DNA from: Leucosporidium creatinivorum
Taxonomy: Eukaryota > Basidiomycota > Microbotryomycetes > Leucosporidiales > Leucosporidiaceae
DNA: 64,000 bases
Direction: 5' to 3'
Assembly: GCA_001600635.1 (NCBI GenBank)
Contig: BCKL01000009.1
Span: 434,001-498,000, forward strand
Of this stretch, positions 33,867-64,000 are shown piece by piece. How positions within the stretch are numbered: the first letter of the stretch is position 1; each line of letters starts with the position of its first letter. The translations under genes and the position numbers were made by a program. Under the pieces are notes generated by a model. It made no database searches, was not told the DNA's origin, and saw nothing but the letters and a program-made list of their open reading frames with translations.

Positions 33867-34521
33867 CTACTGGGGTGAGCTCTCATCTCTCTCCTCGCCT
33901 CGTTCCGGCTGAAGCTGATCTCTTCCTGTCGCAGATCATTGAACGCCGAGCTCGCTGCAAATCGAAACTTTCGCTTTCGTCTCTCCGACATCGCTCGCGA
34001 CTCGAGTGGGTGCAACACTGCAGATCAAACTCGACTGCATCTCGACGGGGACTCGATAGCAGCCGCGGGCGCGAGTCGGAGATTGACGACCTTCGCCGAC
34101 TCGACCGAGGTGGAGGGAAGGGAAGAGATCAAGGCTCCGCTTCGCAGCTTGTGCTTCCCGCTCCTCCACCTCCGAGCCATCTTTAGCTCTCCTCCAAAGC
34201 CTGGGCAAAGCGGGGTGGGGCGTGCAAGTCGAGGCGACGCTTGCTGGCAGGAAGAACTGGGCGAGGAAGAGGTGCCTAAGTCGAATTCCGAGCGCGGTGT
34301 TAGGACTCTGAACCCCTTCCTTCTCCCTTTCAAATGCTCTCATTGGCTACGCGCTACTGGTAGTGGCTTTATCTTCGATACGGGCCCTTGGGATTGGCCG
34401 CGATATCGCTCGATTCCACTTGTCGGAGCTCGACGAGCTTGATCCTTCCCCCTCTCCCTCTTCCTCCTCATCTTCACTCGACTCTTCCCCCTCTCTTGGC
34501 ACTCTTTCTATATCGACCAAC
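33867..34521. other. Upstream region of NRT2 copy 1
   Basis: Mostly inside the left arm of the inverted repeat and matched by 63365-63963. No gene is supported: the frames on the two arms do not stay aligned because of small indels. Confidence 0.5.
34342..34374. promoter_or_regulatory. Candidate CCAAT and GATA elements of NRT2 copy 1
   Basis: An inverted CCAAT (attgg, 34342-34346) and an HGATAR match (AGATAA on the minus strand, 34369-34374) lie about 150-180 bases upstream of the NRT2 ATG. Both are kept in the other arm. Fungal nitrate genes are typically under AreA/Nit2 GATA control, but single short matches are weak evidence. Confidence 0.3.
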
Positions 34522-37175
34522 ATGTCGACCTACAACGACAAGACTGTCTCGCCTTCCACCTCGTCTGGCGTTGACGAGCAATTGGCTCCAGGAGGAGTTC
34601 GCGCCGATAAGGTCTCTGCCATCAACCTGCACGCGCCACCACCTTTCCGATGGGCTTCGCTGTGGGAGAAGCCAGTGGTGAGTGCTCTGAGCTATTCGAA
34701 GGGCCGGCGATCGGAGACGGAGGGATCATCCACGCCCGTCGGAGATGGGGCGAGCGAGCGCAGAGAGCTGACCTGCACCGTTCGCAGATCAACGGCCTCA
34801 ATGGCAAGTCACAGACGTTCCCCATCTTTCGCTTCGACAACCCCTACTCTCGCAATTTTCACTTTGCCTGGCTGTGCGTCGTTTCTGCCCTTCCCTCGGT
34901 GTTGAGCTCGCGTTGCTGACCTCGCTTTGCTCTTCGTCTCGCGCAGCGGGTTCTTCGTCGCCTTCCTGTACGTTCGTCCAGGACAGCTAGTATGGAAGAG
35001 CACATAGCTGACCCTTCCTCGCCCTCTGCAGGAGCTGGTTCGCTTTCCCTCCCCTCATCCCCGAGGCGATCAAGACCGACTTGAGCTTGACTCAGGTGAG
35101 TGACTGCTCTCTGTGGTGCGGCAGAGTCTGTACCGGGATTCGAATGCTATAGGGATGCTGCGAGCTGGACGAGCTAGCCAAGTCGAGTGCGGCGGAGAGA
35201 GGGGGAGGGGAAGCAACGACAGCTCGACCGAGCCTGAGCTCACCGTCTCCTTTCACCACAACAGGCTCAGATCGGCAACTCCAACATTGTCGCGCTCTCT
35301 GCTACTATGGGTCTGCGTCTCTGCCTCGGACCTGTCGTCGATCGTGAGCTACTTCAACTCGTCGCCTTCCTTGCGCCGAGCTGACATGGCTTCGCGTCTG
35401 GCAGGCTTCGGTCCTCGCAAGGTCATGGCTGCGATCCTTCTCGTCGGCGCCATCCCCTCAGGTCTTGCTGGTACCATCACTAGCCCTGCCGGTCTATGTA
35501 CGTCTCTTGTGGTCGAGAGGGAGCGCCAGCGCTAACCTGCCCCCTCCTCCCTCGCAGACACGATTCGCTTCTTCATCGGCATCCTCGGCGCCACCTTTGT
35601 ACCATGCCAAGTGAGTAGCAGTGTACCGTCTTCGTCCTTCTCACGCTGACCTCTCACTACACCACAGGCCTGGACCACCGCCTTCTTCGACAAGAACATT
35701 GTCGGCACGGCTAACGCCTTCGCAGGAGGATGGGGAAACCTCGGTGGAGGCGTGACCTTCGTCGTCCAGGTGAGTAGCTGCTACTTGCGGTCAGAGGACG
35801 CTAGGCTCACCCCTTCGCCCCATAGGTCTCCCTCTTCCAATCGCTCGTCAACCGAGGTCTCTCATCTCACTCGGCTTGGCGCGCCGCCTTCGCCATCGTG
35901 CCCGTCCCCATCCTTATCTTCGTCGCTCTTCTCTGCATCTTCCTCGGTACCGACTGCCCCGCTGGACGGTGGGAGCAGCGCCACACGATGCCAGCGGCTG
36001 CCATCGCGATGCAGCAGGGTCACCTCGTCGAGCTTGACGACGACCAGCGCAGGGTGGGTCCAGGTGCAGCTACTCAGCGAGCTTCAACTGATCTATGTGT
36101 TTCGCCTGCAGGTCGCTCAACAGAAGATGTCGGACAAGGAGCAAGGCAAGACCGAGGTTCGAGAGGTGCAAGACGAGGAGGAGCGTAAGTGCAGCTTCTT
36201 TTAGTCCGCTCGGAGGCTACGCGCTGACCTCTCCACTCCACCAGACGTCGCCAACCTTCATGATATCGATGTGGCTGTGGCTGAGAAGCCTTCGTGGGCC
36301 AACACACTCAAGATTGGTGAGCCGAGTCGGTCGGAGACCACCGTCCTCACTCGCTAACCTCTCTCCCTCTTCAGCTCGCACTCCCTATACCTGGCTCCCC
36401 GCCCTCATGTACTGCACCACCTTCGGATTCGAGCTCGCCGTCGACGCCAATCTCGCCAGCGTGCTCTTTGCCGCTCACAAGAACCTCGGTCAGCTCAACG
36501 CCGGCTACTATGCTGCAACCTTTGGCTTCATGAACATTTGGACTCGTCCTCTTGGAGGTATCGTGGGAGATCTCGTCGGTCGTCGATGGGGACCTGCTGG
36601 TGAGTCGTATACAGCCTCGATGGACTGCTCGGCGAAGGCTAACCGTCCCTTCTTCCCTCCGTTCTACAGGCAAGAAGTACCTCACCATCGTCCTCGGCAC
36701 CCTACAAGGTTTCATGAGTCTTGCGCTCGGTCTCTGGCAAGCGCACGTCTACAAGTCGGGCGGCACTCCGGCTCTCGGCACTCAAATGGCGATCGTAAGT
36801 GCTCTCCCAGCTTGGCGCGTATTCTACAGCAGACGCTGACCGTCTCACACCACCCAAAAACAGGTCGTGATCATGGCCGTCTTCAACGAGATGGCCAACG
36901 GCGCCAACTTTAGTCTCACGCCTCACACCAGCCCCTACTCCAACGGCCTGATGACTGGGCTCGTCGGCGCGTTCGGCAACATGGGAGGAGTGTTCTTCGC
37001 TTTGATCTTCCGTTACTGCCCTGCCAACGCCTTCTCCCAAGCCTGGTGGATCTCTGGAGTGAGTGGCAGCTGACTTCGCTTGCGCCGAGCTGCTCGGCTG
37101 ACCCCTCCTTCCTCGCAGATCGTGGCCATTGTCGTCAATCTGTTCTGTATCCTTATTCCTGCGCCCAAGTACTAG
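34522..37175 (+). CDS. NRT2: High-affinity nitrate/nitrite transporter, NRT2/CrnA family (copy 1)
   Basis: This is an MFS nitrate:proton symporter of the plasma membrane. Fifteen exons give a protein starting [20 protein letters not shown] and ending [10 protein letters not shown]. Both nitrate-signature motifs are present: [15 protein letters not shown] in the first half and [19 protein letters not shown] in the second. The MFS loop motif [12 protein letters not shown] and a second-half match [13 protein letters not shown] are also there. Twelve hydrophobic segments are expected, with a long charged central loop ([17 protein letters not shown]) like that which regulates uptake in other fungal CrnA proteins. 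Every exon reads cleanly. It lies in the left arm of the inverted duplication, followed in the same orientation by the putative regulator. No nitrate or nitrite reductase gene is adjacent. Confidence 0.95.
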
Positions 37176-37827
37176 AGGGCCGCGTGTTTAGTACACTCTG
37201 TAATCTGTCTGTTGGTACCAAAGCCGGCGCTTCGGTCGGGATTAACGGTTTTGAGCCGGCGCCGAGAAGGAGAGAAGAGCAGCTGGCAAGCCGCCCAGGC
37301 GGCGACAGTCGATGTGAACAAGTTGACGCTAGCATAGCAAAGAAAGGCTGCTGTGCTTCAAATGAGTTACTACAGCCCATCAGCCTCAGGCATCTGCTCG
37401 TCGCTGCCCTCGCCTTTCTTGCGCCGAGCTCATCTCGCGCTGGATGGATCGAGTGCCGACGCTCACGGGACTCGCCTGCTCACTTGCACGAGATCAAACG
37501 ACTTTTCACCAGCTTGACAAGTTGCTCACATGACGATCTTCACGCGATTCCCCAGACACTGGGCACCGAATCCTGAACACCGAGGGTTGGCGAGGAGGGA
37601 GTGCTGCAGTCGTGTAGGCTGAGCAGGAGGGTGCAGGGGAGTACGGAGAGTCGAGCGGGACCCAGACTCAACCTTTGTACGAGGCGGGCCATTGAAGAAG
37701 GCAACTCGATCAGGCGCCGAGGACTGCGAGCGGAACGGATGAGCTTGCCGCCGCTACTGCTCAAGGGCAACTCTCTGGCTTTGACCGTACGCCTTGTTTG
37801 GAGAGATTCGACTACAGCTACGATAGG
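37176..37827. other. Spacer between NRT2 copy 1 and putative regulator
   Basis: About 650 bases of non-coding spacer, present in the other arm at 60061-60715 with more differences than the exons show. It should hold the regulator's promoter. No gene supported. Confidence 0.45.
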
Positions 37828-38858
37828 ATGTGCTCGTCTACCGCTACTAGTACGATGGCACCACCTCCTGCTCCTCGTCAACGCGCCATCAAGCCCAAGC
37901 TGCACCTGAGCGGCGATTCGAAAGGCGGAGGAGAGGGCGTCGGTCAGACTTCTTCAACGGCAGCAGCACAGCGTGAGTGTGATACATTCGGGACCCGGGC
38001 TCGTAGCAGCTGGCTGACATCAGCTTGCACCCTCCCGATAGGAAAACGCTGTAGCAAACCAGTGGGGCGTGAAGGAGTGGCAGCCTCGGTCGCTTCGCGA
38101 GGGCCTTCCAGCCGGGCCACAACAAGGGCGGCAGCAGCTCGTGCGCCGGGCAGGGTGTTTGCTGCACCTCCAGATTTCCTGTGTGGACCCATCTACGTCC
38201 CCTGGGAGACCACAGAACCGCCAGCGCTGTGTTGCGGGACGAGGCAGCTGTTGGCCAAGGTCGTCGCCGGATCGAGGGGCACGCGACCGACGCTTGGGCC
38301 GAACAAAGGTNAGTCNCNGNGAGGGCGTATCGTTGTAGTNTANNGAGNCTAANGATCTNTACNGCAGGCTCNACATCANTACCTCCAGCTTCGACCGANC
38401 CAAATGCCGTTTCCTTCGCACCCCGCGCCTTCCTNCCGCCCTCNCCNTCNTCNNTCGGCCGNGAACCCTCTCCTACACTACACGACTCGCCGCTNAAACC
38501 ATCCGCTACANCNCCACAAGCCGACTTTCTCTCCTCCCTCACCCATCTCGCCTANCCTTCCCCTGCCTCCTCGACTCCCACCCCTCCGGCTACCTCCAAC
38601 CTCGACGAGTACATCATCTCGGCTCCTGCACCCGCTTCAATAGAGGTCGACATTCCGTCAGAACCGATCATCAGCTTNGAGGAGGACATGCTCGTCTGGC
38701 CGACCGATCTGAGCACCTTTTCTCGACCGAGCTCGCCGAGCAGTGGCTCCAAGGTCCTCAAGACCGAGGAGGTGGATCTTACGGTGTTGAGCGCGGTCAA
38801 GAGGGAGGATGAGAGCTCGTTGTGGACGATGGGAGGAACGACCGGCTGGAGTTGGTAG
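37828..38858 (+). CDS. Uncharacterised acidic-tailed protein, putative nuclear regulator (copy 1)
   Basis: Family not recognised. Three exons start at ATG 37828 (MCSSTATSTMAPPPAPRQRA); a second in-frame ATG is at 37855. The middle exon gives PPDFLCGPIYVPWETTEPPA and a basic stretch. The last exon is Ser/Pro/Thr-rich with acidic patches (NLDEYIISAPAPASIEVDIP, EEDMLVWPTDLSTF), then LKTEEVDLTVLSAVKRED and a Trp-containing end TTGWSW. LKTE and VKRE both fit the psi-K-x-E SUMO-acceptor consensus, and VDLTVL between them resembles a SUMO-interaction motif. That composition suits a transcription regulator, which is inference only. About 26 unknown bases lie in the second intron and last exon, so some residues (including one TAN codon) are undetermined. 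A mirrored copy lies at 59030-60060. Confidence 0.6.
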
Positions 38859-39230
38859 ACCTGAAGACGATGTGAGCTTTCTCGGGTCTGATCCCATCGC
38901 GAGAGACGGCTCGCTCACCCACATCTTCAATAGCCCGACGTCACACGTAGATGTAGAAAACCTTTCCGTACAGAGTCAGAGATCCTAGAGCCCTGACTAG
39001 ATACACCGATACAAGCAGTGCCATACCCCATCAATCGAGCCTCGGCGATGGGTCGCTGGCGTTGGGAGAGAAGAGGACTGAGGTGCACTGTTCTGCACAA
39101 GCGGCTTGATACCCCAGGGACTCTGGCTCATCGCGCTCAGATCCATTGCCAAACGCACCTCTCGTCTCGACAGCTCGCCGAGTCGCTCTCTCGCTTCTCC
39201 CACTTCCTCGTCTCGCACTCGTCGACTCGA
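38859..39230. other. Intergenic region across the right edge of the left arm
   Basis: The first about 200 bases match 58827-59029 in inverse. After 39056 the sequence is unique and serves as leader and promoter of the Zn2Cys6 gene. Confidence 0.5.
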
Positions 39231-40194
39231 ATGGCCTCGGCACAGGCTCCCATCGGCAGAAGGACGCGTCAGAACCCTCACCCTACTCTCAACAGCGAGT
39301 TACTTGGCCACGACGAGCAGGAGCAGGAGGACCGCTCGGACGCGTCGAGGAAGGCTAAGCCTAAGAAGCGGCGTCGGGCGACGAGAGTGAGAACATCGTG
39401 CGAGCCTGTAGGTTTTGGCTCTGTACCGAGCTCTGCAGCCCGTCAGCTTACCCACCTCACGCGTTCAGTGCCGCAAGAGGAAGGTCCGCTGGTGGGTGGT
39501 GCTCGGCGTCAATGTTCTGCAGGTCAATACGCTGAGCCCGACAGCCCACAGTGACCGCAAATGTCCGTGCTCCCAGTGCACCCTTCACCAAGACGTAAGT
39601 CGACTCGGTCACGGCGCAGGCTGAGGGACAGTGAGCGCTGAGCCTTTCTGCTCCCAGGAATGCTACTACGAGGACGCTCTACCACTGTCCGAGTCGTCTC
39701 CTTCGCACTCTCGGAAGTTTGAGCTGATCCCTCATCCTCACAGATCCGACATCGGCGAAGTGGAAGGCGAAAACGAGCTTGCGATCGCCAACGCCGAGAT
39801 TCGGCGCCTTGGTCAGCTCGTCCAGTCGCTCGACGCGCAGTCGGGGCACTCCACCACTCGTCAAGTACCTAGCAAGCTGCCTCGCATCGCTCAACGCTTC
39901 CGCGACGTCGCCACTCCTCCCCGTCTCGCCAGCTTCCGCCTCTCCTTGCTCGGCGATGCTCTCCCTTCAACCCCTCGCGAGCGCCCACCTACACCGTACA
40001 CCATACGCCGTCGATATCTCAACCAATCCATTCACCTCTCTACCTCGATCCGAACCTCTCTCGTCTCATACGGCTACCAATCCCCCATCGAACGCTTCGG
40101 CCGAGGTCAAGGAGCGTCGCCGAGCAAGCTGGCGGGCGCCGAGAGCTTTGTGAGGACAGGCAGCGAAGGAAATCGGAGCGGTCGCATGTCGTAG
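39231..40194 (+). CDS. Zn2Cys6 transcription factor (paralog 2)
   Basis: A small binuclear-cluster regulator starting at ATG 39231. A strongly basic stretch KAKPKKRRRATRVRTSCEP leads into CRKRKVRC, DRKCPCSQCTLHQD and ECYYEDALPL, each on its own exon. This gives C-x2-C-x6-C-x5-C-x2-C-x6-C. A heptad-like helix ELAIANAEIRRLGQLVQSLD follows. The remaining about 130 residues are Arg/Ser-rich and unrecognised. Intron sites within the finger and the ECYYxxAxPL continuation match the gene at 29282-30325, so the two are paralogs, in opposite orientation about 9 kb apart. It lies just outside the nitrate-transporter inverted repeat. Confidence 0.85.
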
Positions 40195-40452
40195 TGGGAC
40201 GAGGGCTGTGGAGATATAGGCCAGATGTGGTGCAGGGCAGGAGGAAAAGAGGAGCGATAGGAGCTCGGCGATGGCGGTGGCTACGAAGCTTTGATACTCC
40301 CTTACCGTTACTGGCATTACTCATCGCCCATTACTGCAACTCGTAATCAGCCATGCGCGGCAGTCTGGGGCAGCTCGGCCTTTGCGCATTGAGAGAAGCG
40401 AGGGCTGACGAGATTCCTCCTTTGCTTCTCGCTCTTTGCTTCGCTCGCTGCT

Positions 40453-42260
40453 ATGACTTCTCTACCGCTCTCTCCGGTAAGTTCTGCAGCTCAGCAGTGC
40501 TCTATCGCTCAGGCTAACCTCTGATCTGCAGTCTTCGACCCGGGATCCGCTCGCTGGTCATCTTGCTCACCTCGCTCCTGCACAAGCCTCGGCGCTCGAC
40601 GCGTTCAAAGCCAGGCTAGCGGAAGGAGGATACTACACCGCTGCTACCGATTCTGCTGCTGCATCGCACGAGGATGTCTCGCTAGTGTCAGTGATTTTGC
40701 TTCCAAGCAAGCGCGTCGAGCTTCTGCTGACTCGTCCTCTCGCTTCCGCCTCCCTCCCTTCCGGCCGCCTCGATCTTCGCCCATCCTTCACCTACATCTC
40801 TTATCGGGCCCCTCGACGTTCCCGATCTCCAGCCGGTTCCTTCGCGCTCGCAAGTTTGACGTCGAGGGAGCTTTCGTCCAGTTCACCACGACCGAGACCT
40901 GGAGGAAGAAGGAAGGCGTGGACGCCCTGTTCGACGGATTCCCCATCGAGGAGTTTGAGCTCTCGCAACAGGTCTACACCCAGTACACGGGACGGCGGAC
41001 AAAGAGCGGCCAGCCGCTTTACGTCTACAAGGTCGGCGCTTTGACCAAGGAGAAGGTCAATGAGTACTCGAAGAAGTCGGATAGGCTGGAGCCGAGGATG
41101 ATTGTGCTATCAGAGGTAAGCTGCTGCTGCTAGCGATGCGATGGGAAGGCCGAACTGACCATCTCGGCTTTCGCAGATGATGACTGCCTTCACCCTTCCC
41201 CTGTGCACGAGTCTGCCGCGCCCCAACCCCGAGACGCCCATCGACTCTACTGTCTGCAGTGAGTCATCTTGTGCACCCTTAACCGACGTCCCCATGCTCA
41301 TACCCGCCCATTCGCAGTCGTCGACGTCGCCAACGTCTCTCTTACTCGCTTCTGGCAGCTCAAGGTGACTTCAGACGAGACTGCAGCTAGTGTACAGCTA
41401 CTCATTCTCTGCACTACAGGGCCACATGCAGCGCGCCTCGACTATGGCCACCGCTCACTACCCCGAAACCCTCGGAGCGTGAGCTCTTTCCGATTACGCC
41501 CTTTTGAGGGCACAACGCTGATGTCGCTTCTCTAACGCACAGTATCTACCTCGTCGGAGCACCGAACTTGTGAGTTGCCGACCAGTCTCCGTTCTCTCTC
41601 CTCGCGACTCGGCTCGCTAGCCGCGAGCTCGGCGCTGACCTGCCTTCTTCCTCCTCCATCTCGCAGCTTCTCGACCGTCTGGAGCTGGGTCTGCCGGTGG
41701 TTCGACCAAGGAACAGTAGACAAGATCTTCATCCTCTCGTGCGTCTTGCCCTTCTCGCTTCCCCGACTCTCTAGCTAAACTCCCTCTGCTCCTCCTCCAG
41801 CTCGCACGAAGTCCTCCCCACCCTCCTCCGCTACGTCGACGAATCCAACATCCCCAAACGCTACGGCGGCACCCTAGACTGGGATTTCGGAGATCCGGTC
41901 ACCCTGGACGAGGAATCTAAGAAGGCGTTGGGATTGGAGAGGCTGCCGAGGGGGCCTGTGAGGTTTAAGGTGGGGGAGGGGTTCCGGCGGGTGGGGAGTG
42001 GGAGGTCAGAGGAGGAGTTGAAGGAGGAGGAGGAGAGAAGGAGGAGGGTGGAGGAGGAGAAGCCGAAGATGAATGGCTCGGCGCCGGTGGCCGTACCCGT
42101 CGCTGCGGTAGAGGCTGAGGCTATCGCCAGCACCAACGGAAGGGAGGTCACCTCGGATAGCGAGGACGAGGGAGGTGATGATGTTTGGGCAGCAGCGAGG
42201 GAGGTCCCCGGCTCGCCAATCAAGGATTTGGCGGCAAAGTTGGAGGGAACGACGCTGTAG
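40453..42260 (+). CDS. Sec14-like CRAL-TRIO lipid-transfer protein
   Basis: A multi-exon gene beginning with a tiny exon (MTSLPLSP, 40453-40476). The CRAL-TRIO-N segment is RFLRARKFDVEGAFVQFTTT. The lipid-binding domain follows: YTQYTGRRTKSGQPLYVYKV, CIVDVANVSLTRFWQL, YPETLGAIYLVGAPNFFSTV and LPTLLRYVDESNIPKRYGGT, the last being the conserved PxxYGG end of the domain. A Glu/Arg-rich coiled-coil tail follows (EEELKEEEERRRRVEEEK) and the protein ends AAKLEGTTL. Sec14 proteins exchange phosphatidylinositol and phosphatidylcholine and prime phosphoinositide kinases. It is convergent with the WD40 gene, 135 bases away. Confidence 0.9.
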
Positions 42261-42395
42261 GGTTGGTCTTGAAGCAGGACAGAACTATAGAAGCTTAGAT
42301 GCCTGTTTATAATATCATACCGGGTCGCTCTCGAGCGGCTCCGCACAATCTCGTTCTCGTCGGCTCTCGGCGCCGGTTAATGCTTGCGAAACGAA

Positions 42396-44390
42396 CTAGC
42401 TTCCCCTCGCCCCAGCTCCAGCTACAGCAAAGCATTCCAACCCCGGTCCATCCCCGACCCAAAGCACCGGTCCTCTCTCACCCGTTCTCCCGCCGTCCTG
42501 TCGCTCCACCTCCCGCCTCTCCCGCCCATCGTCTCTTCGGCGATGTCTTGCCAGACTATCCGATCCGGCGAACGTGAGGGCTTTGATTGGCTCTGAGAAG
42601 GTGCGGAGGAGTGGTGAAGGGTCGGGAGTGGACCAGCCCGCGATGAGCGAGGAGGAGGGTGGGATGATGGGTGTGGAGGAGGAAGGAGGGAGGATTGGCG
42701 ACCCGGTCCGGAGGGACCAGAGGCGGATGCGGGCGTCTTGGCCGGCTGTTTTAGAGTTCAGATAGTCAGCTACGCGTATGAAGTATGGGCGAGGGATACA
42801 GTTGAGCGCACCAGCAGCCACAAAATCGTCCCGCCAGACGTCGAGGCCGATGTCGGCGGTGAATGAGTTGACGTGCCCTTCGAAGGTGAGGTAGGGCTTT
42901 TTGGATGGGAATCGAAGGTCGTACATTCCTAGTGATCTGTTGAGAGATGCGAGGGTCAGATAATAGCCCGCAGAGAGAGGGCTCGACGAGCTCACCCATC
43001 CATCCCTGCTACGAGGAGGCCGTCCTGCAATCGCCGTACATGGGTGACAGAGCTGCTGATGCTCAGTTGAGTCTGTGGCGTACGTTATGCGTCAGTAGTG
43101 GCGCGGAAGGAAAGGTAGCTGACCAGCAAACGAACCTCAGCTCTCGTCTCCGGCGCATCCCCTCGTCCTTCTCGGTCCTCCTTCGAAGGCGAGGACCTCT
43201 GATCAAACATCTTGACATGTCCCTTGCGCGTACCAGCGAAAATGAGGTTCTGTACTTGTGAGACGAATGATCAGCCCCGATGTGGCTAACAGCTGAGGAA
43301 CTGAGCAGCCCACCTCGGTCAGGTCAAGCGCGAAAACGGCTCCGTCGCCCCGCTGGCTACCTGTTATGTAGCCGTCCATGGAGGGTCGGCTGGGGTCTCT
43401 TGAGGTCAAAACTTTTCGGTCGCATCCTGCAGGACGAGACGAATCAGCAGAACCTCGAGCGAACGAGGGCTTGGGAAGAGCACCGAGAGCGACGAGATCT
43501 GGCGAGAGCGCCGAGGTCCAAAGTGAGGTCTTGCGTGGTGACAGGGTCACCGATCTACATCAGAGACCTGGGTTAGTTTTGTTGAAGCTAGCTAGAACCG
43601 AGCACCTCACGCCATGCTAATGTTCTCGCTGGTCGTCGCTACGATGGCTTGCGCTGGAGGGCCGAGACAGGTTGCTCTGCGCTCAGATAGGGTCAGCGGA
43701 GGCTGGGAGAAGTATATAAGGAAACTGACGTACAACATGCGACCACCGCAGGTCAGCAGCGAGGTGATTCGAGCCGGGAGAAGCCACTGAATCCGCCAGC
43801 CTTGCTCGTCGTTCGGGTAATAGGCCTCCTCGTTGCGGACGCGGGAGAGGGAGCCGGTTCTGATGGACATGGAAGGTTAGCTTGTAGTATGAAGCTACTC
43901 TGGAAGGGCAGAGCTCACGCTATCGAGCCATTCGAGCCTCCTACGCGCATGAGGGAGGGGTCCAGCTCGTCGAAAGAGACTACTCCGATGGCTTCGTCCA
44001 TGGGTAGACAGTCGGGGTAGATGGTCCTGGTAGATTGTAGTCTACCCATGGAGAGCGACTCGAGTTCACTGCGATCAAATCAGCTCTCGGCGCAAAGAAG
44101 GAAGCGAGAGGGAGCGGAGCTCACTGATGCATCCTGCTTCTTGAGCCGCCGAGGGAGAGCTGAGCGTCAAACATGGATCTGAGACCCGACATGGAAGGCT
44201 CTACAGCTTTCGCTTTGCCCTTGTCCTGCGCCCGCCGAGCTTTCTTGCGTTGTCGTCCTGCAGCCGCTGGTTCTGGTGGAGGGAGAGGATGGGCTGGTTT
44301 GAAGACGGCGCCGGCGCCTGGGAGTGATTTGTAGAAGCGTGTACCATCCCATTCGTAGCCTGGCATTAAGAACGGTGCCTTGGCCGTCAT
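42396..44390 (-). CDS. DCAF4-like WD40 repeat protein
   Basis: The N-terminus FLMPGYEWDGTRFYKSLPG matches the N-terminal motif of DCAF4/WDR21 proteins (PGxxxD..RYF). WD-type blades follow on many short exons, for example TSLLTCGGRML, AIVATTSENISM, NLIFAGTRKGHVKMFDQR, LQDGLLVAGMDGSLGMYDLR and AGQDARIRLWSLRTG. In animals DCAF4 is a substrate receptor of CUL4-DDB1 ubiquitin ligases. A nuclear-localisation-like RQRKKARRAQDKGKAK lies near residue 50. The start ATG (44390) is only 110 bases from that of the divergent GCFC gene. Confidence 0.75.
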
Positions 44391-49490: not shown

Positions 49491-50463
49491 GGTGGGCTGG
49501 GAGACCAGGGAGAGGGAGAGGCGGAGGAGAGTGGGCACGGTGTAGTCTTAGGTGCCTTCGTGACTGTTGATGATTCTCTTCTGTATGTAGTTTCGTAGCC
49601 TGTCTAGTTCTGTAAACACCCTGTCCATCGCATCGACGCTCAGAGGAGCAGCAGAGCAGCTCGGCGCTCGAGGGCGAGGACTCGTCGGCCGCACAGTGAG
49701 AGCTGTTCAGAGAGGGGCAGTCGTTATATCGTGTCGCCTAGTACTTCAGCTGAACACCTTCCTCCGCCTAGGGCTCTTCTGCCGCCCTGCAGCGAGCGTG
49801 ACAGCCGAGCAGCTGCGAAACGAGCGCGAAAATCGCCTCTGCAGCGTCCTACAGCTCGCAAACAGTCTTTCTTGAAAGCCGCAGCCGGCGAGGAACACCT
49901 TCTTCGACCTCATACTCGCTCGTCAGCTGCTGCAGTGTTGTAGGTTCCCAGTGAAGACGGTTTTCGGCTCGTTCTCTCTTGAGTGAATTGAAGGTGAGAG
50001 AGGGAGTAAGGAAGAGGTAACAACTGACTACAAACTGGAAACTGAAGACGTGGGCACGTTGCGGAATTGCCTCGAGAGTTTGCTTCCTCCCTTGGATTTC
50101 GCCTCTCGGCTGGAAAGGGCGAGACTTCCCAGCTGAGCCTTCTCTCCTCCCACCACATCGCTTTCTCGCCCCCGCTTTCTCGCTTCGCTACCTCACTATA
50201 CAACCCCACCACCACCGCGTACTCCCCCGCAGGCTCTCGGACGGGGTGCAGCGCGCAGGAGCCCCTCTTGCTCGGCGCTGCGGCTCGGCGATGATTGTCC
50301 AACTCTCGAAAGCTCGCTGCTCTAGCTCTTCTGCACCTCCAGGTGGCACTGAATCAAGCTGGGAATTTCGAGAGGGAGACTATGTAGCAAAGAGTAAACC
50401 GAGACTGTATCAGAGAGCGCGCACAAGCAAGCGACCGTCGCCAAACCTTCCTCCTCCTCCTCC
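49491..50463. other. Intergenic region containing an inverted copy of the H2A.Z upstream region
   Basis: Apart from the repeat arm at about 49780-50226, no gene is seen. The 3' ends of a plus-strand and a minus-strand gene converge here. Confidence 0.5.
49780..50226 (+). repeat. Small inverted repeat, left arm (copy of H2A.Z upstream region)
   Basis: About 447 bases match the reverse complement of 54443-54884, at roughly 90% identity by eye. The match includes a long shared block around gaattgcctcgagagtttgc and cgctttctcgcccccgcttt. The copy points rightward, toward the 3' end of the zinc-finger gene at 50464. Confidence 0.9.
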
Positions 50464-54432: not shown

Positions 54433-54442
54433 GTTTATAGGT

Positions 54443-54884
54443 GAGTAGGTGGTGGTGGTAGGGTTGTAGTGAGGTAGCGAAGCGAGAAAGCGGGGGCGAG
54501 AAAGCGATGTGGTGGGAGGAGAGAAGGCTCAGCTAGGAAGTCTCGCCCTTTCCAGCCGAGAGGCGAAATCCAAGGGAGGAAGCAAACTCTCGAGGCAATT
54601 CCGCAACGTACCCACTTCTTCAGTTTCCAGTTTGTAGCCATTTGTTACCCCTTCCTTTACTTCTCCTTACCTTCAATCCACTCAAGAGAGAACGAGCCGA
54701 AAACCGTCTTCACTGGGAACCTACATCACTGCAGCTGCTGGAGAGCGAGCAAAAGGTCGACGATAGGGCTACACATTGGATGCCAGCGTCTAGCAGCACT
54801 GTTTGCGACCTGCAGGACGAGCTAGAGGCGACTTCGGCGCTCGTTTCGCAGCTGCTCGGCTGTCACGCTCGCTGCAGGGCGGCA
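54443..54884 (-). repeat. Small inverted repeat, right arm (H2A.Z upstream region)
   Basis: Covers the presumed leader and promoter of H2A.Z, ending 11 bases from its ATG. Inverted match to 49780-50226. Divergence is by scattered substitutions and small indels. Confidence 0.9.
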
Positions 54885-55024
54885 TAATCGCTTCGAGCTG
54901 TGCAGCAGACTCAGATGAGTGACCACCTCAGACAGCCGACGCTGACTGCCTCTGTATGACTCTCTGCACCGCACACCAACCCTCGGCGATGGCGATGTTG
55001 AGCGATCCTGCATTCATTCCACCT
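54885..55024. other. Short spacer between H2A.Z upstream repeat and MPP6 3' end
   Basis: Nothing recognised. Both neighbours are transcribed leftward. Confidence 0.3.
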
Positions 55025-56458
55025 CTACTGCTTCCCCTTCTTTCCCTTCTTCCCCTTCGCAGCACCTCCAGCACTCCTACTCGCACCACCCTCCTCCTCT
55101 CTCCTGAACATATTTTCCACCTCCCTCTCAAACTTGGCCTTCGCCGCTCCCTTCGCCGAAGCGCCCTTCCCCGCACTCGACCGACTCATCAACATCTCCT
55201 CCACATCCTCATCACTATCCTCATCGCTATCCTCCTCCTCCAAATCGAACACCCCATGATGATCATCCTCCTCATCACTCTGCTCCGACTCCTTGCCGTC
55301 ATCCCACTCCCTCGCCTCCCCTCGCTTGCCCCACACCGGCTCAGGCTCCTCGCTCCTCTGACCATACAGCTGCTTCCCCTTCCCCTTCTTCTTGCCACCC
55401 TTGGCCGCTCCTTCAAATCCAGCAGGCTTAGCGAATCCTCCTTGCTCCGTCTTGACCTTCTTGCTCGCCGGTGCTGCTCCTCCACCGCCACCGCCGCCGA
55501 GCGTTTTCCAGGTCTGAGCGGCGAGAGAGGGCTTCTTGCTGGTGGCAGTTGAAGGGGCGGAACGGACGTTGAGAGGGAGCTCGTCTCGCTCGGCCTTTTT
55601 GCGCTTCTTCTTTTGCGAAGCGGTCTCTTCGGGGTTGGCAGTAGAGGTGGAAGCGACGGGAAGAGTAGGGTTGTTGAGGTGCTGCAGGTGCGACGAGCGA
55701 TTGGTGAGCATTCGGCCGACCTAGGTTAAGGCAGCCAGCGCCCGACGAAGACGGTGAGCTCACCTCAATCTCGGCGTTGGCGCCGCCGAAGCTTCGTCGA
55801 CCGGAGACGACGGAAGAGGTCATGGGCATGGAGGAGTAGGTGTGGGCGTAGGAGGAGGAGGAGGGTTTCGGGGTTGAGGAGAAGGAGGAGAGGAGGGGGA
55901 AGGAGAGGAGCGAGCCCTCGTGGATGACTCGGCGGGAGCTATGAGAGAAAGTGCGGATTAGCGTAGATCTTGTGCTCTTCACGTTGAGCTGTAACGCCTG
56001 AGAAGCAGCTTCGGTCGAGCGTGCGGGCCGCTCCTTGTCCATGGCCGCTTCAAAGCTATGTCGGCCGCTCTGCGCTACGCCGAGCACTACCGAGTGCTCG
56101 CCAGTACTTCTCAAGCGAGCTCTGACCCAGCCCACAGCGACAAGGACCCTCCTCCCCCCTACGCTGCTCCCTGACGAAAAGCGACGAGCCTCGTAACTCA
56201 CCTCGAACCGGCCTGAGGGGCACTCCTAGTCCAATCATTCGTCTCCTCTGTAGCAATCTGAACCTCCTTCTTCTCCTCTTTCTTAGCCGGCGTACCAGCC
56301 TTTCCAGCCGCGACGGGAGCGCTCTTGGACGAGGACGAAGCTGGCGCCGAAGGAGCAGCAGCGGGCGCTTCTTTGTCGTCCGAGATGAGTGGTTTAGGTT
56401 GAACTTTGTTCATGAATTTGAGGCCCAATGTGCCCTTGGAGAGCGATCGACCCGACAT
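55025..56458 (-). CDS. MPP6: M-phase phosphoprotein 6-like nuclear exosome cofactor
   Basis: Mpp6 binds Rrp6 and the nuclear exosome and helps recruit Mtr4 for RNA surveillance and 5.8S rRNA maturation. Diagnostic parts are the N-terminal LSKGTLGLKFMNKVQPKPL and, further on, SVVSGRRSFGGANAEIE, equivalent to the RRSFGGFNPxxE motif of fungal Mpp6. The C-terminal half is a Lys/Glu-rich tail with an acidic block (DLEEEDSDEDSDEDVEEMLM) ending GKKGKKGKQ, longer than in yeast. Two introns were seen. The ATG at 56458 is fixed by homology. Confidence 0.85.
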
Positions 56459-56922
56459 GGCGGTAGAGCTGCTGCTGAGCGAGAGAAGCGGCGAGCGAGA
56501 GACGAAAAAGGCGGAGAGGGCTGTACGGCGTTGAGTGGTAGAAGGCGGGGCTGGTCTGTAGCGATTTGGAGCTGTACGGAAGTCTGTAGTCGATTCGAAG
56601 CTAGAACGAGGTGATTGCAGGAGTCTAAGCCTGCGTCGACTTCGCCGCTCTCCCCCTCCCTCCTTTCCCTCTCGAACCGCTCGTCTCGCTCGCCTCCGAC
56701 TCGTGGGATTGCTCGCGCGTCGATTGTACTACAGCAAGGGTAAAACACTGCTTCTAGGACGTCAGGACACGCTCCTGTAGGACTTTAATTCGGCTCTCAG
56801 GCGCGCGTGAGAGCGATTGTTGTTGGCGAGTTCGGCGAAGCGCGTGGCGAATCCTCGTGAGTAGGCTTCTGTAGCGCTGTAGAGCAGCATCAGCTCACTA
56901 TTAACCTACAGTACTCTCCACC
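56459..56922. other. Divergent intergenic region between MPP6 and bZIP genes
   Basis: About 460 bases carrying both promoters. No gene supported. Confidence 0.45.
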
Positions 56923-58737
56923 ATGGCCGCACGACCGACGTCCGAGGAGGCAACGCGCGCACTGCAGTCGCTGCTCGCTGCAGCCTTCCCAAACGGCACT
57001 GCACCTTCCTCCGACTCGATCCCTTACCCGACGACCAACCACCTCGGCAGTACAAGTACCAGCGGCAACGAGGATAGCCTGCAGAATAGCGGCGAGGGGA
57101 CTCCTCAGGAGGAGCAGCTCTTGCAGGCCCTCAGCGCCATCAGCAACGGCACCAGCGACAACACTTCGCTCCTTCATTCGCACACCATGGCACTACTAGC
57201 AGCTCAACCAGGTCTCCTTCCCGGTCTCACCTTTGCCCCTCCATCCCCGGGACCTCGCACTCGCGCCGCCTCCGCCTCCCTCTCCGCCGCTGCTCAGCGC
57301 CACGCTTCCCAAGGCCCATCCTACTACACGCCACTCCCTACTCGCTCAGGTCGAGTTCCTCAAGTTCCCGATCCTACCGCCGCCGAACCCGCTCGCGAGA
57401 CGATGCTCTTCAACGACTACTTCGACTGGCCGTCCTCGGACGACGAGGACGACCCCGATTTCCAGCCGCAAGCTGCATGGAGCGACATCGTCGTGGGACA
57501 GGGAGGAGGAGTCTTCTCGGCTGATGAGGATGGAGATGACCTCGAGACCGACTTCAGCGCCGTGGACGAGGGGTTCATCCCCGGCGATGCTCTACCCAGC
57601 GACGGGCTCGGCTTGGGACGGCTCGACTCGGACGACATCCTCGTTGGCGCTGGGGGAGCTTCCACCTCGCAAGTACCTATGGATCCTTACGCTCTCCCCG
57701 GCACAACGAGGTCATCATCTCGCCTCAGTCGAGCTCCCGCCTCGTCGTCCTCTCCCGCCCCTTTCGCTCCTCCACCACCACCACCCAAACGCAAGCCAGC
57801 CAAGTCCAAAGCATCTACCTCCACTCGCGGTCGCAAACGCCCTCGCACCACCCTCTCTCCCCTCCCCGAAGACCCCATCGACGACCTCTTCATCGAGCCT
57901 CCTCCGCCCATTCGCCCCTCTGCTCCTGCCGCTTCGCCTTACATCGCCGTCGACTCTCCCGCCGTACCCCTTCCTCACACGGCCGCCATGAAAGCTCTCT
58001 ACGGCATCGGCACACCCGGCAGCCTTCCCCCAACTCCCCTGGCCTCCACCTCGGCCGCTCTAACTCCCGCTCCCACCGCCCCTACTCCCATCCCCTCTAC
58101 CACCACCTCCAAGTCGGGCTCGACTCGCAAACCCATCATCCTCGGCGGTCGAGAGAAGGTCGGTCCCGACGGTGTGGTTCGCAAGGTGCGAGGCAAAGGG
58201 CGCAAGCAGCTGCAGTTGACGGAAGAGCAGCTCGAAGAACAGAAGAGGGAGAAGAATCGGTTGAAGGCCAAGCAGAATAGGGAGAGGAGGAAGAAGCAGT
58301 TGAAAGGGGGGCAGGCGAGGATTGATGAGTTGGAGGAGGAGAACGAGGAGTTGAGAAAGAGGGTTGAGCTGTTGGAGAAGGAGAATCGGGAGATGAGGAG
58401 GGAGAGGGGAGAGAGTGTATCGGTGTCGGTGCAGGGCGGGGATGAGGAGACGGTGGATGGGAGCACGGGTGCCGAGACGAGGGATGAGAATTGGGATGTC
58501 GACAGCGTCGCGGATAGTGTCGAGGATGATGACGGGATGGAAGGCGATGAAGTGGACCGAGCGAGAGAGAGGGCGGAGGATGTGATGATGGCGGGAGTGC
58601 AGGGGCGCACGAGTGGAGGAGCGCCGGCGTTCGACTTGTCGGGTCTGAGCGCCGAGGGCTTGGAGGAGCTGAGGAAATTGCTCCTCGTCGCTGCCAAAGC
58701 CAACGGCAGCGTCGCCCCGACTGATGTAGAGGCTTGA
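56923..58737 (+). CDS. bZIP transcription factor
   Basis: An intronless gene of 604 codons with an ideal start context (ccaccATGg). The basic region EKNRLKAKQNRERRKKQLKG keeps the invariant Asn and Arg nine residues apart. It is followed by a leucine-zipper coiled coil (ARIDELEEENEELRKRVELL and EKENREMRRE). Before it lie acidic stretches (YFDWPSSDDEDDPDFQ, SADEDGDDLETDFSAVDEG) that could activate transcription, and a basic AT-hook-like KSKASTSTRGRKRPRTT. The C-terminus has a Leu-rich helix SAEGLEELRKLLLVAAKANG. The target pathway is unknown. It ends about 90 bases before the right arm of the inverted duplication. Confidence 0.9.
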   Translation: MAARPTSEEATRALQSLLAAAFPNGTAPSSDSIPYPTTNHLGSTSTSGNEDSLQNSGEGTPQEEQLLQALSAISNGTSDNTSLLHSHTMALLAAQPGLLPGLTFAPPSPGPRTRAASASLSAAAQRHASQGPSYYTPLPTRSGRVPQVPDPTAAEPARETMLFNDYFDWPSSDDEDDPDFQPQAAWSDIVVGQGGGVFSADEDGDDLETDFSAVDEGFIPGDALPSDGLGLGRLDSDDILVGAGGASTSQVPMDPYALPGTTRSSSRLSRAPASSSSPAPFAPPPPPPKRKPAKSKASTSTRGRKRPRTTLSPLPEDPIDDLFIEPPPPIRPSAPAASPYIAVDSPAVPLPHTAAMKALYGIGTPGSLPPTPLASTSAALTPAPTAPTPIPSTTTSKSGSTRKPIILGGREKVGPDGVVRKVRGKGRKQLQLTEEQLEEQKREKNRLKAKQNRERRKKQLKGGQARIDELEEENEELRKRVELLEKENREMRRERGESVSVSVQGGDEETVDGSTGAETRDENWDVDSVADSVEDDDGMEGDEVDRARERAEDVMMAGVQGRTSGGAPAFDLSGLSAEGLEELRKLLLVAAKANGSVAPTDVEA

Positions 58738-59029
58738 AGACACGAAGAGGTAGTCTTGCTTTAGCACATCCGTTTTGCCGCAATTCGCACATACGATCAG
58801 CTTTGCCGTCCTCGATTTGACACCTCGCGACCCATCGCCGAGCCTCGATTGACGGGGTATGGCACTGCTTGTATTGATGTATCGTATCTAGTGAGGGCTC
58901 TAGGATCGCTGAATCTGTATGAAAAGGCTGTCTACATCTATGTGTGACGCCGGGCTGTAGGGGATGTGGGTGAGCGAGCCGTCTCTCGCGATGGGATCAG
59001 AACCGAGAAAGCTCACATCGTCTTCAGGT

Positions 59030-60060
59030 CTACCAACTCCAGCCGGTCGTTCCTCCCATCGTCCACAACGAGCTCTCATCCTCCCTCTTGACCGCGCTCA
59101 ACACCGTAAGATCCACCTCCTCGGTCTTGAGGACCTTGGAGCCACTGCTCGGCGAGCTCGGTCGAGAAAAGGTGCTCAGATCGGTCGGCCAGACGAGCAT
59201 GTCCTCCTCNAAGCTGATGATCGGTTCTGACGGAATGTCGACCTCTATTGAAGCGGGTGCAGGAGCCGAGATGATGTACTCGTCGAGGTTGGAGGTAGCC
59301 GGAGGGGTGGGAGTCGAGGAGGCAGGGGAAGGNTAGGCGAGATGGGTGAGGGAGGAGAGAAAGTCGGCTTGTGGNGNTGTAGCGGATGGTTTNAGCGGCG
59401 AGTCGTGTAGTGTAGGAGAGGGTTCNCGGCCGANNGANGANGGNGAGGGCGGNAGGAAGGCGCGGGGTGCGAAGGAAACGGCATTTGGNTCGGTCGAAGC
59501 TGGAGGTANTGATGTNGAGCCTGCNGTANAGATCNTTAGNCTCNNTANACTACAACGATACGCCCTCNCNGNGACTNACCTTTGTTCGGCCCAAGCGTCG
59601 GTCGCGTGCCCCTCGATCCGGCGACGACCTTGGCCAACAGCTGCCTCGTCCCGCAACACAGCGCTGGCGGTTCTGTAGTCTCCCAGGGGACGTAGATGGG
59701 TCCACACAGAAAATCTGGAGGTGCAGCAAACACCCTGCCCGGCGCACGAGCTGCTGCCGCCCTTGTTGTGGCCCGGCTGGAAGGCCCTCGCGAAGCGACC
59801 GAGGCTGCCGCTCCTTCACGCCCCACTGGTTTGCTACAGCGTTTTCCTATCGGGAGGGTGCAAGCTGATGTCAGCCAGCTGCTACGAGCCCGAGTCCCGA
59901 ATGTACCTCACTCACGCTGTGCTGCTGCCGTTGAAGAAGTCTGACCGACGCCCTCTCCTCCGCCTTTCGAATCGCCGCTCAGGTGCAGCTTGGGCCTGAT
60001 GGCGCGTTGACGAGGAGCAGGAGGTGGTGCCATCGTACTAGTAGCGGTAGACGAGCCCAT
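59030..60060 (-). CDS. Uncharacterised acidic-tailed protein, putative nuclear regulator (copy 2)
   Basis: Mirrored copy of the gene at 37828-38858 with the same three-exon structure, start (MGSSTATSTMAPPPAPRQRA) and end (TTGWSW). It carries the same psi-K-x-E pair (LKTE, VKRE) around VDLTVL. In the parts with known bases the last exon appears identical to the other copy. Differences include MCSS versus MGSS and RAIK versus RAIR. The unknown bases sit at mirrored positions to those in copy 1, so differences within the last exon are hidden. Function unknown. It is followed in the same orientation by NRT2 copy 2 upstream on the arm, as in copy 1. Confidence 0.6.
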
Positions 60061-60715
60061 CCTATCGTAGCTGTAGTCGAATCTCTCCAAACAAGGCGCA
60101 CGGTCAAAGCCAGAGAGTTGCCTTTGAGCAGCAGCGGCGGCAAGCTCATCCGTTCCGCTCGCAGTCCTCGGCGCCTGATCGAGTTGCCTTCTTCAATGGC
60201 CCGCCTCGTACAAATCTAGATTCTGTTTCCAGTAGCACTCCCCGTACTCCACGTACTCCACTACAGCCTCCTGCTCACCCTACTCGACTACAGCACTCCC
60301 CCCTCGCCAACCCTCGGTGTTCAGGATTCGGTGCCCAGTGTCTGGGGAATCGCGTGAAGATCGTCATGTGAGCAACTTGACAAGCTGGTGAAAAGCTGTT
60401 TGATCTCGTGCAAGTGAGCAGGCGAGTCCCGTGAGCGTCGGCACTCGATCCATCCAGCGCGAGTTGAGCTCGGCGCAAGAAAGGCGAGGGCAGCGACGAG
60501 CAGATGCCTGAGGCTGATGGGCTGTAGTAACTCATCTGGAGCACAGTAGCTCTCCGTTTTATCGTCAATTTGTTCACATCAACTGTAGACGCCTGCGCGA
60601 CTTGCCAGCTGCTCTTCTCTCCTTCTCGGCGCCGGCTCAAAACCTTTAAACCCGAACGCAACGCCGGCTTTTGTACCAACAGACAGATTACAGAGTGTAC
60701 TAAACACGCGGCCCT
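60061..60715. other. Spacer between NRT2 copy 2 and putative regulator copy 2
   Basis: Counterpart of 37176-37827 with more differences than exons show, including an altered stretch of repeated gtactcc/ctacag words around 60220-60290. Confidence 0.45.
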
Positions 60716-63364
60716 CTAGTACTTGGGCGCGGGAATAACGATACAGAACAGATTGACGACAATGGCCACGATCTGCGAGGAAGGAGGGGTCAGCCGAGCA
60801 GCTCGGCGCAAGCGAAGTCAGCTGCCACTCACTCCAGAGATCCACCAAGCTTGAGAGAAGGCGTTGGCAGGGCAGTAACGGAAGATCAAGGCGAAGAACA
60901 CGCCTCCCATGTTGCCGAACGCGCCGACGAGCCCAGTCATCAGGCCGTTGGAGTAGGGGCTGGTGTGAGGCGTGAGACTGAAGTTGGCGCCGTTGGCCAT
61001 CTCGTTGAAGACGGCCATGATCACGACCTGTTTTTGGGTGATGTGAGACGGTCAGCGTCTGCTGTAGAATACGCGCCGAGCTGTGAGAGCACTTACGATC
61101 GCCATTTGCGTGCCGAGAGCCGGAGTGCCGCCCGACTTGTAGACGTGCGCTTGCCAGAGACCGAGCGCGAGACTCATGAAGCCTTGCAGGGTACCGAGGA
61201 CGATGGTGAGGTACTTCTTGCCTGTGAAACAGAGGGAAGAGGGGACAGTCAGCTATCGCCGAGCAGTCAAACGAGGCTGTACAGGACTCACCAGCAGGTC
61301 CCCATCGACGGCCGACAAGATCACCGACAATACCACCAAGAGGGCGAGTCCAGACATTCATGAAGCCAAAGGTTGCAGCATAGTAGCCGGCGTTGAGCTG
61401 ACCGAGGTTCTTGTGAGCGGCGAAGAGCACGCTGGCGAGGTTGGCGTCGACGGCGAGCTCGAATCCGAAAGTGGTGCAGTACATGAGCGCGGGAAGCCAG
61501 GTGTAGGGAGTGCGAGCTGAAGAGGGAGAGAGGTTAGCGAGTGAGGACGGTGGTCTCCGACCGACTCGGCTCACCAATCTTGAGTGTGTTGCCCCACGAA
61601 GGCTTCTCAGCCACAGCCACATCGATATCATGAAGGTTGGCGACGTCTGTATAAGAGTAAAGGTCAGCGTGTGGCCTCCGAGCGGACTGAAGCAAGCTGC
61701 ACTTACGCTCCTCCTCGTCCTGGACCTCTTGGACCTCGGTCTTGCCCTGCTCCTTGTCCGACATCTTTTGCTGAGCGACCTGCAGGTGAACTCTATCCAT
61801 CATTTTGAGCCCGCTGAGTGGCTGCACCTGGACCTACCCTGCGCTGGTCGTCGTCCAGCTCGACGAGGTGACCTTGCTGCATCGCGATAGCGGCCGCTGG
61901 CATCGTGTGGCGCTGCTCCCACCGTCCAGCGGGGCAGTCGGTACCGAGGAAGATGCAGAGAAGAGCGACGAAGATAAGGATGGGGACGGGCACGATGGCG
62001 AAGGCGGCGCGCCAAGCCGAGTGAGATGAGAGACCTCGGTTGACGAGCGATTGGAAGAGGGAGACCTATGGGGCGAAGGGGTGAGCCTAGCGTCCTCTGA
62101 CCGCAAGTAGCAGCTACTCACCTGGACGACGAAGGTCACGCCTCCACCGAGGTTTCCCCATCCTCCTGCGAAGGCGTTAGCCGTGCCGACAATGTTCTTG
62201 TCGAAGAAGGCGGTGGTCCAGGCCTGTGGTGTAGTGAGAGGTCAGCGTGAGAAGGACGAAGACGGTACGCCGCTACTCACTTGGCAAGGGACAAAGGTGG
62301 CGCCTAGGATGCCGATGAAGAAGCGAATCGTGTCTGCAAGAGAGGAGGAGCAGGTCAGCGCGAGCCCGCTGTCTCGATGACGAGAGACGTACAGAGACCA
62401 GCAGGGCTAGTGATGGTACCAGCGAGACCCGAGGGGACGGCGCCGACGAGAAGGATCGCAGCCATGACTTTGCGAGGACCGAAGCCTGCCAGACGCGAAG
62501 CCATGTCAGCTCGGCGCAAGCAAGGCGACGAGCCGAGGTAGCTTACGATCGACGACAGGTCCGAGACAGAGACGTAGACCCATAGTAGCTGAGAGCGCGA
62601 CAATGTTCGAGTTGCCAATTTGAGCCTGTTGTGGTGAAAGGAGACGGTCAGCTCAAGCTCGGTCGAGCTGTCGTTGCTTCCCCTCCCCCTCTCTCCGCCG
62701 CACTCGACTTGGCTAGCTCGTCCATCTCGCAACATACCTATAGCATTCAAATCCCGGTACAGACTCTGCCGCACCACAGAGAGCAGTCACTCACCTGAGT
62801 CAAGCTCAAGTCGGTCTTGATCGCCTCGGGGATGAGGGGAGGGAAAGCGAACCAGCTCCTGCAGAGGGTGAGGAAGGGTCAGCTATATGCTCCTCCACAC
62901 TAGCTGTCCTGGACCAACGTACAGGAAGGCGACAAAGAACCCACTGTGAGAGACGAAGAGCAAAGCGAGGTCAGCGGCGAAAGCTCAGCAGCGAGGGACG
63001 GCGAAATACGACGCACAGCCAGGCAAAGTGAAAGTTGCGAGAGTAGGGGTTGTCGAAGCGAAAGATGGGGAACGTCTGTGACTTGTTATTGAGGCCGTTG
63101 ATCTGCAAACGGTGCTGGTCAGCTCTCTGCGCTCGTTCGCCCCATCTCCGACGGTGATGATCGTCATTTCGACTCGAATCGCCAGCCCTTCGAATAGCTC
63201 AGAGCACTCACCACTGGCTTCTCCCACAGCGAAGCCCATCGGAAAGGTGGTGGCGCGTGTAGGTTGATCGCAGAGACCTTATCGGCGCGAACTCCTGGAG
63301 CGAACTGCTCGTCAACGCCAGACGAGGTGGAAGGCGAGACACTCTTGTCGTTGTAGGTCGACAT
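60716..63364 (-). CDS. NRT2: High-affinity nitrate/nitrite transporter, NRT2/CrnA family (copy 2)
   Basis: Second complete MFS nitrate transporter, inverted relative to copy 1, with the same 15-exon structure and both nitrate signatures ([15 protein letters not shown] and [19 protein letters not shown]). Visible amino-acid differences from copy 1 are few and mild: YNDKS for YNDKT, EQFAPGV for EQLAPGGV (one residue shorter), GLNNKS for GLNGKS, ILLVGAV for ILLVGAI, TEVQE for TEVRE, SWGN for SWAN, MNVW for MNIW, and CIVIP for CILIP. Introns differ more than exons. This pattern indicates that both copies are under protein-level constraint, or are homogenised in exons. No break is seen. Confidence 0.95.
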
Positions 63365-64000
63365 GTTGTTCGGTTGAGAACGAGGGCCGAGAGAGGGGGG
63401 AGAGTCGAGTGAAGATGAGGAGGAAGAGGGAAGGAGGAAGGATCAGGCTCGTCGAGCTCCGACGAGTGGAATCGAGCGATATCGCGGCCAATCCCAAGGG
63501 CCCGTATCGAAGATAAAGCCACTACCGTTAGCGCGTAGCCAATGAGAGCATCTGAAAGGGAGAGAAGGAAGGGTTTCACAGTCCTAACACCGCGCTCGGA
63601 ATTCGACTTAGGCACCTGTCCCCTCGGCCAGTTCTCCCTGCCAGCAAGCGTCGCCTCGACTTGCACGCCCCACCCCGCTTTTGCCTCGGCCTTGTAGCAG
63701 AGCTAAAGATGGCTCGGAGGTGGAGGAGCGGAAAGCACAAGCTGCGAAGCGGAGCCTTGATCTCCTCCCTTCCCTCCACCTCGGTCGAGTCGGCGAAGGT
63801 CGTCAATCTCCGACTCGCGCCTGCGGCTGCTATCGAGTGGACGTCGAGATGAAAGTCGAGTTCGATCGGCAGTGCTGCACCCACTCGAGTCGCGAGAGCG
63901 AGGTCGGAGAGACGAAAGCGACAGGTTCGAGTTGCAGCGAGCTCGGCGTTCGATCTCCTGCGGTGGGAGGGGATGACGATCCGTCAGCTCGTGCGGAGGG
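63365..64000. other. Upstream region of NRT2 copy 2 and window end
   Basis: Inside the right arm up to about 63963. The last about 37 bases resemble the 3' end of a minus-strand intron belonging to a gene outside the window. Confidence 0.4.
63511..63543. promoter_or_regulatory. Candidate GATA and CCAAT elements of NRT2 copy 2
   Basis: AGATAA (63511-63516) and ccaat (63539-63543) lie about 150-180 bases from the NRT2 copy 2 ATG and mirror those of copy 1 in order and spacing. Confidence 0.3.

Follow-up and report, generated by a model that had tools for sequence, protein, structure and literature searches.

The genes nrt2, euknr and NAD(P)H-nir are usually clustered in variable order, according to Slot and Hibbett (2007, PMC2040219). 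Unclustered nitrate genes are described for some fungal lineages in PMC4347624. In Suillus the nitrate genes are single-copy with two exceptions, as given in PMC12501645, and among yeasts of the Rhodotorula group the pathway is intact in some and partly lost in others, as stated in PMC6476726.

Duplicated genes that evolve together are a known phenomenon, and the locus described here is of that kind. In a study of chromosome palindromes (PMC3403216) and in one of Caenorhabditis paralogues (PMC3966223), duplicates reportedly show concerted evolution by gene conversion. Our search of the open-licence literature found nothing on inverted, gene-converted NRT2 nitrate transporters, on duplication of the crnA / nrtB nitrate transporter gene, or on ectopic gene conversion between inverted-repeat paralogues in fungi (synonymous divergence). 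Here we describe an inverted duplication in Leucosporidium creatinivorum with two intact NRT2 genes, whose similarity is most likely maintained by gene conversion in addition to purifying selection. The window, that is the whole stretch of DNA analysed (64,000 nucleotides), is C9:434001-498000, where C9 is one of the 63 contigs of the 27.7-Mb genome. Intron density, the Zn_clus and Fungal_trans domains and the genes present suggest a fungal genome, probably that of a basidiomycete.

Results

Comparison of the window with itself gave one large inverted repeat, the arms of which are as follows (window positions).

33802..39056, + strand: arm A of the inverted duplication, with high identity from about 33930 (blastn)
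58827..63962, - strand: arm B of the inverted duplication, with homology reaching window-scale 64097, past the window end (blastn)

By blastn, 33930-39056 matched 63962-58827 on the minus strand with 93.96% identity over 5148 columns, and the spacing between the arms is 19.8 kb, which bears out the initial annotation of arms of about 5.1 kb lying about 20 kb apart. Identity drops sharply at about 33930/63962 and at 39056/58827. When neighbouring contig sequence was added, a weak outer fringe of homology reached 33802 / 64097. The inner flanks of the two arms are unrelated to each other. A DNA search of the whole genome (27.7 Mb) for the arm sequence returned two candidates, which were arms A and B, and no third place. 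The genome contains the 5 kb inside arm A once, apart from a single 49-bp match. Up to position 38212 the arms differ at 291 columns, gaps counted; the upstream region differs at 44 of 591 sites, and the 3' spacer, compared between the arms, at 48 of 662. Within the assembly, the inverted duplication is genuine. Elsewhere in the window, 19831-19930 is an assembly gap of 100 N, and a smaller second inverted repeat (452 bp, 88%) lies at 49777-50227 / 54440-54887. Its copy at 54440-54887 lies over predicted exons of a gene model on the minus strand, and this model takes in a histone H2A-like protein (Pfam Histone, Histone_H2A_C).

Each arm carries one intact NRT2 gene and the same second protein, as had been noted from the sequence at the outset.

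34522..37175, + strand: NRT2 copy A, 15 exons, 542 aa
60716..63364, - strand: NRT2 copy B, 15 exons, 541 aa

Copy A matched TIGR00886 over the full profile (1-368) with 356.7 bits against a cut-off of 311.7; the scan was run on this copy, to which copy B is 98.3% identical in amino acids (533 of 542 aligned positions). Both copies contain GGWGNLGG, which we take to be part of the nitrate signature. They are predicted transporters of the NarK/NRT2 nitrate/nitrite MFS family. No PDB relative of NRT2 was found by sequence. NRT2-like genes in the genome search total four, among which the TIGR00886 scan was limited to arm copy A. The two others are more distant (C12:390868-393146 and C32:68950-71239): amino-acid identity is 42% and 39% when gap-free codon alignments are used, and 38% and 32% by blastp. 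The gene on C12 is followed by a 436-aa protein without a Pfam match (C12:386-402 kb), and these two are flanked by neighbours that share a 101-aa stretch, 76% alike and SDR-like by eye.

The initial annotation had proposed an alignment of the arms and described the exons as nearly identical and the introns and spacers as different. This is right on average: NRT2 exons differ at 65 of 1626 sites (4.0%) and introns at 99 of 1023 (9.7%). It fails for single introns, which range from 0 to 22%. The 65 exon differences fall on codon positions 1/2/3 as 4, 4 and 57, NG86 gives dN 0.0073 and dS 0.158 (dN/dS about 0.05), and 37 of 304 four-fold sites differ. Both NRT2 copies are under purifying selection.

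Divergence at silent sites is patchy. Among the 14 introns of NRT2, divergence is 0, 0, 0, 3.5, 3.6, 4.3, 7.8 and 8.2%, and 13.8-22.4% in the remaining six, so that six are at or below 4.4% and eight at about 8-22%. Three introns of 56-60 aligned bases have zero differences, whereas five of 58-73 have 17-22%. This heterogeneity is beyond chance (chi2 71.5, 13 df; 0 of 5000 shuffles). The longest identical run covers 147 of the 1202 silent sites, defined as four-fold plus intron sites (35623-35996), and none of 5000 shuffles reached it. It falls in the following tract.

35623..35998, + strand: 376-bp identical tract without Ns, likely a conversion tract, containing one whole intron and part of another

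A two-state model with 1.5% and 19.6% divergence fitted 66 log units better than a single rate (logL -745.7 vs -811.8); this fit also includes the spacer and all sites of 37844-38299, which are partly coding and not silent, and both the run test and the intron test exclude them. Identical and diverged silent tracts thus alternate beyond chance, as is expected of a gene-converted paralogue pair. The patchy silent divergence (about 1.5% vs 20%) is best accounted for by gene conversion between the arms, beyond selection on exons. Unflagged collapse in the assembly could partly account for the tracts of low divergence.

One block of the arms is a clear case of collapse.

38212..38885, + strand: 674-bp block, identical in both arms, assembly collapse, with 26 mirrored single Ns
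59003..59676, - strand: the same 674-bp collapsed block in arm B

All 26 N columns between 38311 and 38678 of arm A carry N in arm B too, and apart from the Ns the block is perfectly identical between the arms. Because the 26 single Ns occupy the same sites in both arms, the block represents two copies merged by the assembler. Some of the likeness of the arms is artefactual, a product of the assembly. Should this block lack a spanning read pair, the inner 20 kb may not be fixed in orientation.

The collapsed block extends into the second gene of the arms.

37855..38858, + strand: uncharacterised 291-aa protein, copy A; exons 37855-37972, 38042-38308, 38368-38858
59030..60033, - strand: uncharacterised 291-aa protein, copy B; exons 60033-59916, 59846-59580, 59520-59030

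The gene has three exons with consistent intron phases and an open frame in both arms; its start codon is uncertain, with an in-frame ATG slightly upstream. Owing to the collapse, the identity of its 3' half is unusable and the tail sequence of each copy is not fixed, and we dropped exon-3 identity as a sign of conservation. The Ns themselves are informative. The 15 Ns of exon 3 lie at codon positions 1/2/3 as 3, 0 and 12 (binomial p 0.0003), and Ns are denser in the second intron (11 in 59 bases) than in exon 3 (15 in 491). The third-position bias and the denser Ns in intron 2 suggest that the Ns act like true differences between the arms. By these signs exon 3 is probably coding and under constraint. 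The N positions in this exon, the intron-like N density and the fitting intron phases together make the case that the gene is coding. Other results speak against it. Codon usage, scored with exon edges a few bases off the final model, was poor: exons 1-3 scored -4.6, -28.7 and -4.6 in the model frames, all negative. The model frame was the best of the three forward frames for exons 1 and 3, and another frame scored higher (-14.1) for exon 2. Our home-made gene predictor did not call the gene. The four resolved CDS differences lie at codon positions 2, 2, 3 and 3, so they show no constraint.

For the 291-aa protein, no Pfam family was listed at E<=10 (the filters remove most weak matches), and neither the PDB nor the rest of the genome gave a match at E<=1. 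The Pfam and PDB searches found no recognised DNA-binding or regulatory domain in it. Its composition, judged by eye, is basic in the N-terminal half and acidic in the tail. Beyond this composition nothing supports the label "regulator" of the initial annotation, and we regard it as a guess. This co-duplicated protein can reasonably be proposed as a candidate partner in nitrate uptake, and any role of this kind is putative.

A third pair of related genes flanks the arms, and was absent from the initial annotation.

32712..33866, + strand: F-box-like gene outside arm A, 362 aa
C9:498041-499159 (window-scale 65159-64041, past the window end), - strand: F-box-like gene outside arm B

No F-box Pfam model was listed for either copy, and a relative at C9:569 kb matched PF12937 with 17.6 bits, below the cut-off of 24.3; we call the genes F-box-like because no F-box model exceeded its cut-off. 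Gene models other than those of NRT2 and the 291-aa protein come from the simple home-made predictor, which was trained on this region, or, for the Zn2Cys6 gene below, from inspection by eye. Copy B of the F-box-like pair contains an unusual 144-bp intron; the gene may be damaged or its model wrong. The two copies share 37% aa by blastp, 44.5% aa in a gap-free codon alignment and 58% nucleotide identity. Their NG86 dS is 1.12, against 0.16 for NRT2; YN00 was unusable for diverged pairs, so NG86 values are given, and dS above 1 is saturated. At four-fold sites they differ at 41 of 84, against the 37 of 304 in NRT2. They are reciprocal best matches (145.8 bits vs 58.4 for the next locus; 141.2 vs 67.5) and each sits in the same position and direction with respect to NRT2. 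The family is large: copy A has at least 83 matches, counted as exon hits at E<=0.01 with the query and its partner among them. Its members lie on contigs C8, C9, C10, C15, C27, C38 and others, and many of the matches cover the N-terminal motif only.

A second duplicated block with F-box-like and MFS genes, in direct orientation, is present on the same contig (C9:568830-573465 and C9:614825-619594). Its F-box-like part is 93% alike and its MFS pieces 67-79%. The F-box-like genes at 569 and 615 kb share 97% aa over 267 codons with dS 0.21 (the 615-kb model starts late and has 267 aa), and the adjacent MFS genes have dS 0.82. Four-fold sites differ at 20 of 147 in the F-box-like genes vs 111 of 224 in the MFS genes. 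The age step is thus of opposite sign to that of the NRT2 block. Mirrored Ns were found at 4 of 4 columns of this block also. With the second block, partial homogenisation gains weight as something this genome does repeatedly, although two cases are few. Nearby is a tandem pair of proteins of no known kind, 65% aa alike (C9:573802-574766 and C9:575255-575968).

Beside arm A lies a further gene.

39232..40194, + strand: Zn2Cys6 (Zn_clus) gene just inside arm A, exon model by eye

It matched PF00172 with 35.6 bits (cut-off 21) and has no duplicate beside arm B. A scan for GATA octamers gave 0 matches where 1.23 were expected. The NirA-type motif CTCCGHGG occurred 0 times in five promoter stretches. 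GATA hexamers were present in 5 of 5 promoter stretches, a count made with no control, and we draw no regulon claim from it.

The reductases of the pathway are on another contig.

C2:170180-174813: NiR, divergent from NR, Pfam domains confirmed
C2:176244-179378: NR, divergent from NiR, Pfam domains confirmed

The search for the NR domain (Mo-co dimerisation) gave a single match in the genome, on C2. The NiR/SiR domain search gave matches on C2 and two exon matches on C11, which we take for a putative sulphite reductase, and none on C9. As DNA, the NiR/NR region C2:170001-177000 (7 kb) was found once. A Fungal_trans gene adjoins NiR. From these domain matches, the nitrate pathway is predicted to be complete yet divided between contigs. 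The earlier remark that no reductase is nearby holds locally, as C9 has no NR or NiR domain match. Unclustered layouts are noted for some lineages of fungi in PMC4347624.

Discussion

The locus consists of two copies with intact genes, mosaic divergence and an age step between neighbouring gene pairs, and the reductases lie elsewhere. We consider it somewhat more probable than the contrary that the locus arose by old inverted segmental duplication of a block made up of F-box-like gene, NRT2 and 291-aa gene. The F-box-like copies would then have drifted apart, and the part with NRT2 and the 291-aa gene would have been reset, after which ectopic conversion from one inverted arm to the other made it alike again in patches, with both NRT2 copies held by purifying selection. 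The outcome would be two intact predicted high-affinity nitrate importers serving one NR/NiR pair elsewhere in the genome. Conversion as the mechanism, a dosage benefit and any role of the 291-aa protein are inferences here. Against this reading stands that even the diverged patches of the arms, at about 20% silent divergence, are far under the F-box-like pair, so that it requires a single reset of all 5.1 kb. A single long conversion and a separate, later duplication would leave the same picture.

The dS of 1.12 against 0.16, together with the sharp step, is accordingly compatible with either an old block with a reset inner part or a later copy of 5 kb. In the latter case, the F-box-like genes would be an older inverted pair between which the NRT2 and 291-aa segment was copied about 0.2 silent substitutions per site ago, perhaps via homology of the F-box-like 3' ends, and then patchily converted. 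We hold this to be a serious, less probable alternative. The sharp identity steps at both ends of the arms and the shared ceiling of about 20% in the diverged patches speak for it, and the large F-box-like family makes older neighbours conceivable. On the other hand, the F-box-like pair are mutually closest by a wide margin and agree in place and orientation, so that joint duplication is simpler, and the second block on the contig shows a like step with the roles swapped.

The initial annotation saw an old duplication whose coding parts were kept similar, which amounts to one duplication, selection on coding parts and no conversion. Its selective part stands, as both NRT2 genes are intact and their dN/dS is low, and the excess of intron over exon divergence agrees with it. 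As the whole explanation it is very improbable: three introns lack any difference and five are at 17-22%, and the longest identical tract includes a whole intron and silent sites. Stretches of identity cross introns and are interspersed with diverged ones, a pattern that speaks for gene conversion as well, and it is the flanking F-box-like genes that make up the old part of the duplication. It is also very improbable that the second arm arose by misassembly or represents a haplotype put in the wrong place. The 26 mirrored Ns, and the four in the second block, do show copies left unseparated, but the 291 differing columns, the unrelated inner flanks and the single occurrence of both the 5 kb inside arm A (one 49-bp match excepted) and the 7 kb around NiR and NR speak against it for the whole arm. 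The old block duplication with inner reset and patchy conversion is therefore our preferred reading.

A flip of the inner 20 kb by recombination between the arms is possible. A far-reaching combination, which we think very improbable, would be a reversible switch in which this flip moves the Zn2Cys6 gene between the two modules, F-box-like genes that mark repeated conversion-prone duplications, and a 291-aa protein that is a new nitrate-uptake partner or regulator kept in step with NRT2. More generally, neighbouring genes of one duplicated block can give very different ages, and dating from the well-kept gene alone misleads. Mirrored single Ns reveal collapsed repeats, and their codon positions can still support an uncharacterised ORF as a gene.

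The locus resembles the gene-converted duplicates reported from palindromes and Caenorhabditis paralogues in that duplicated arms are made alike, and palindromes are likewise inverted; the arms here differ in being 20 kb apart and 94% alike overall. The NRT2 protein itself has nothing out of the ordinary compared with NarK/NRT2 MFS transporters, with copy A above the TIGR00886 cut-off and GGWGNLGG in both copies. In relation to the fHANT-AC cluster, as described in PMC2040219, the same three functions are present here and NR and NiR are adjacent and divergent. Whereas the published genes are usually clustered, nrt2, NR and NiR are not together in this genome: NR and NiR are on C2, and NRT2 is doubled and on another contig, C9.
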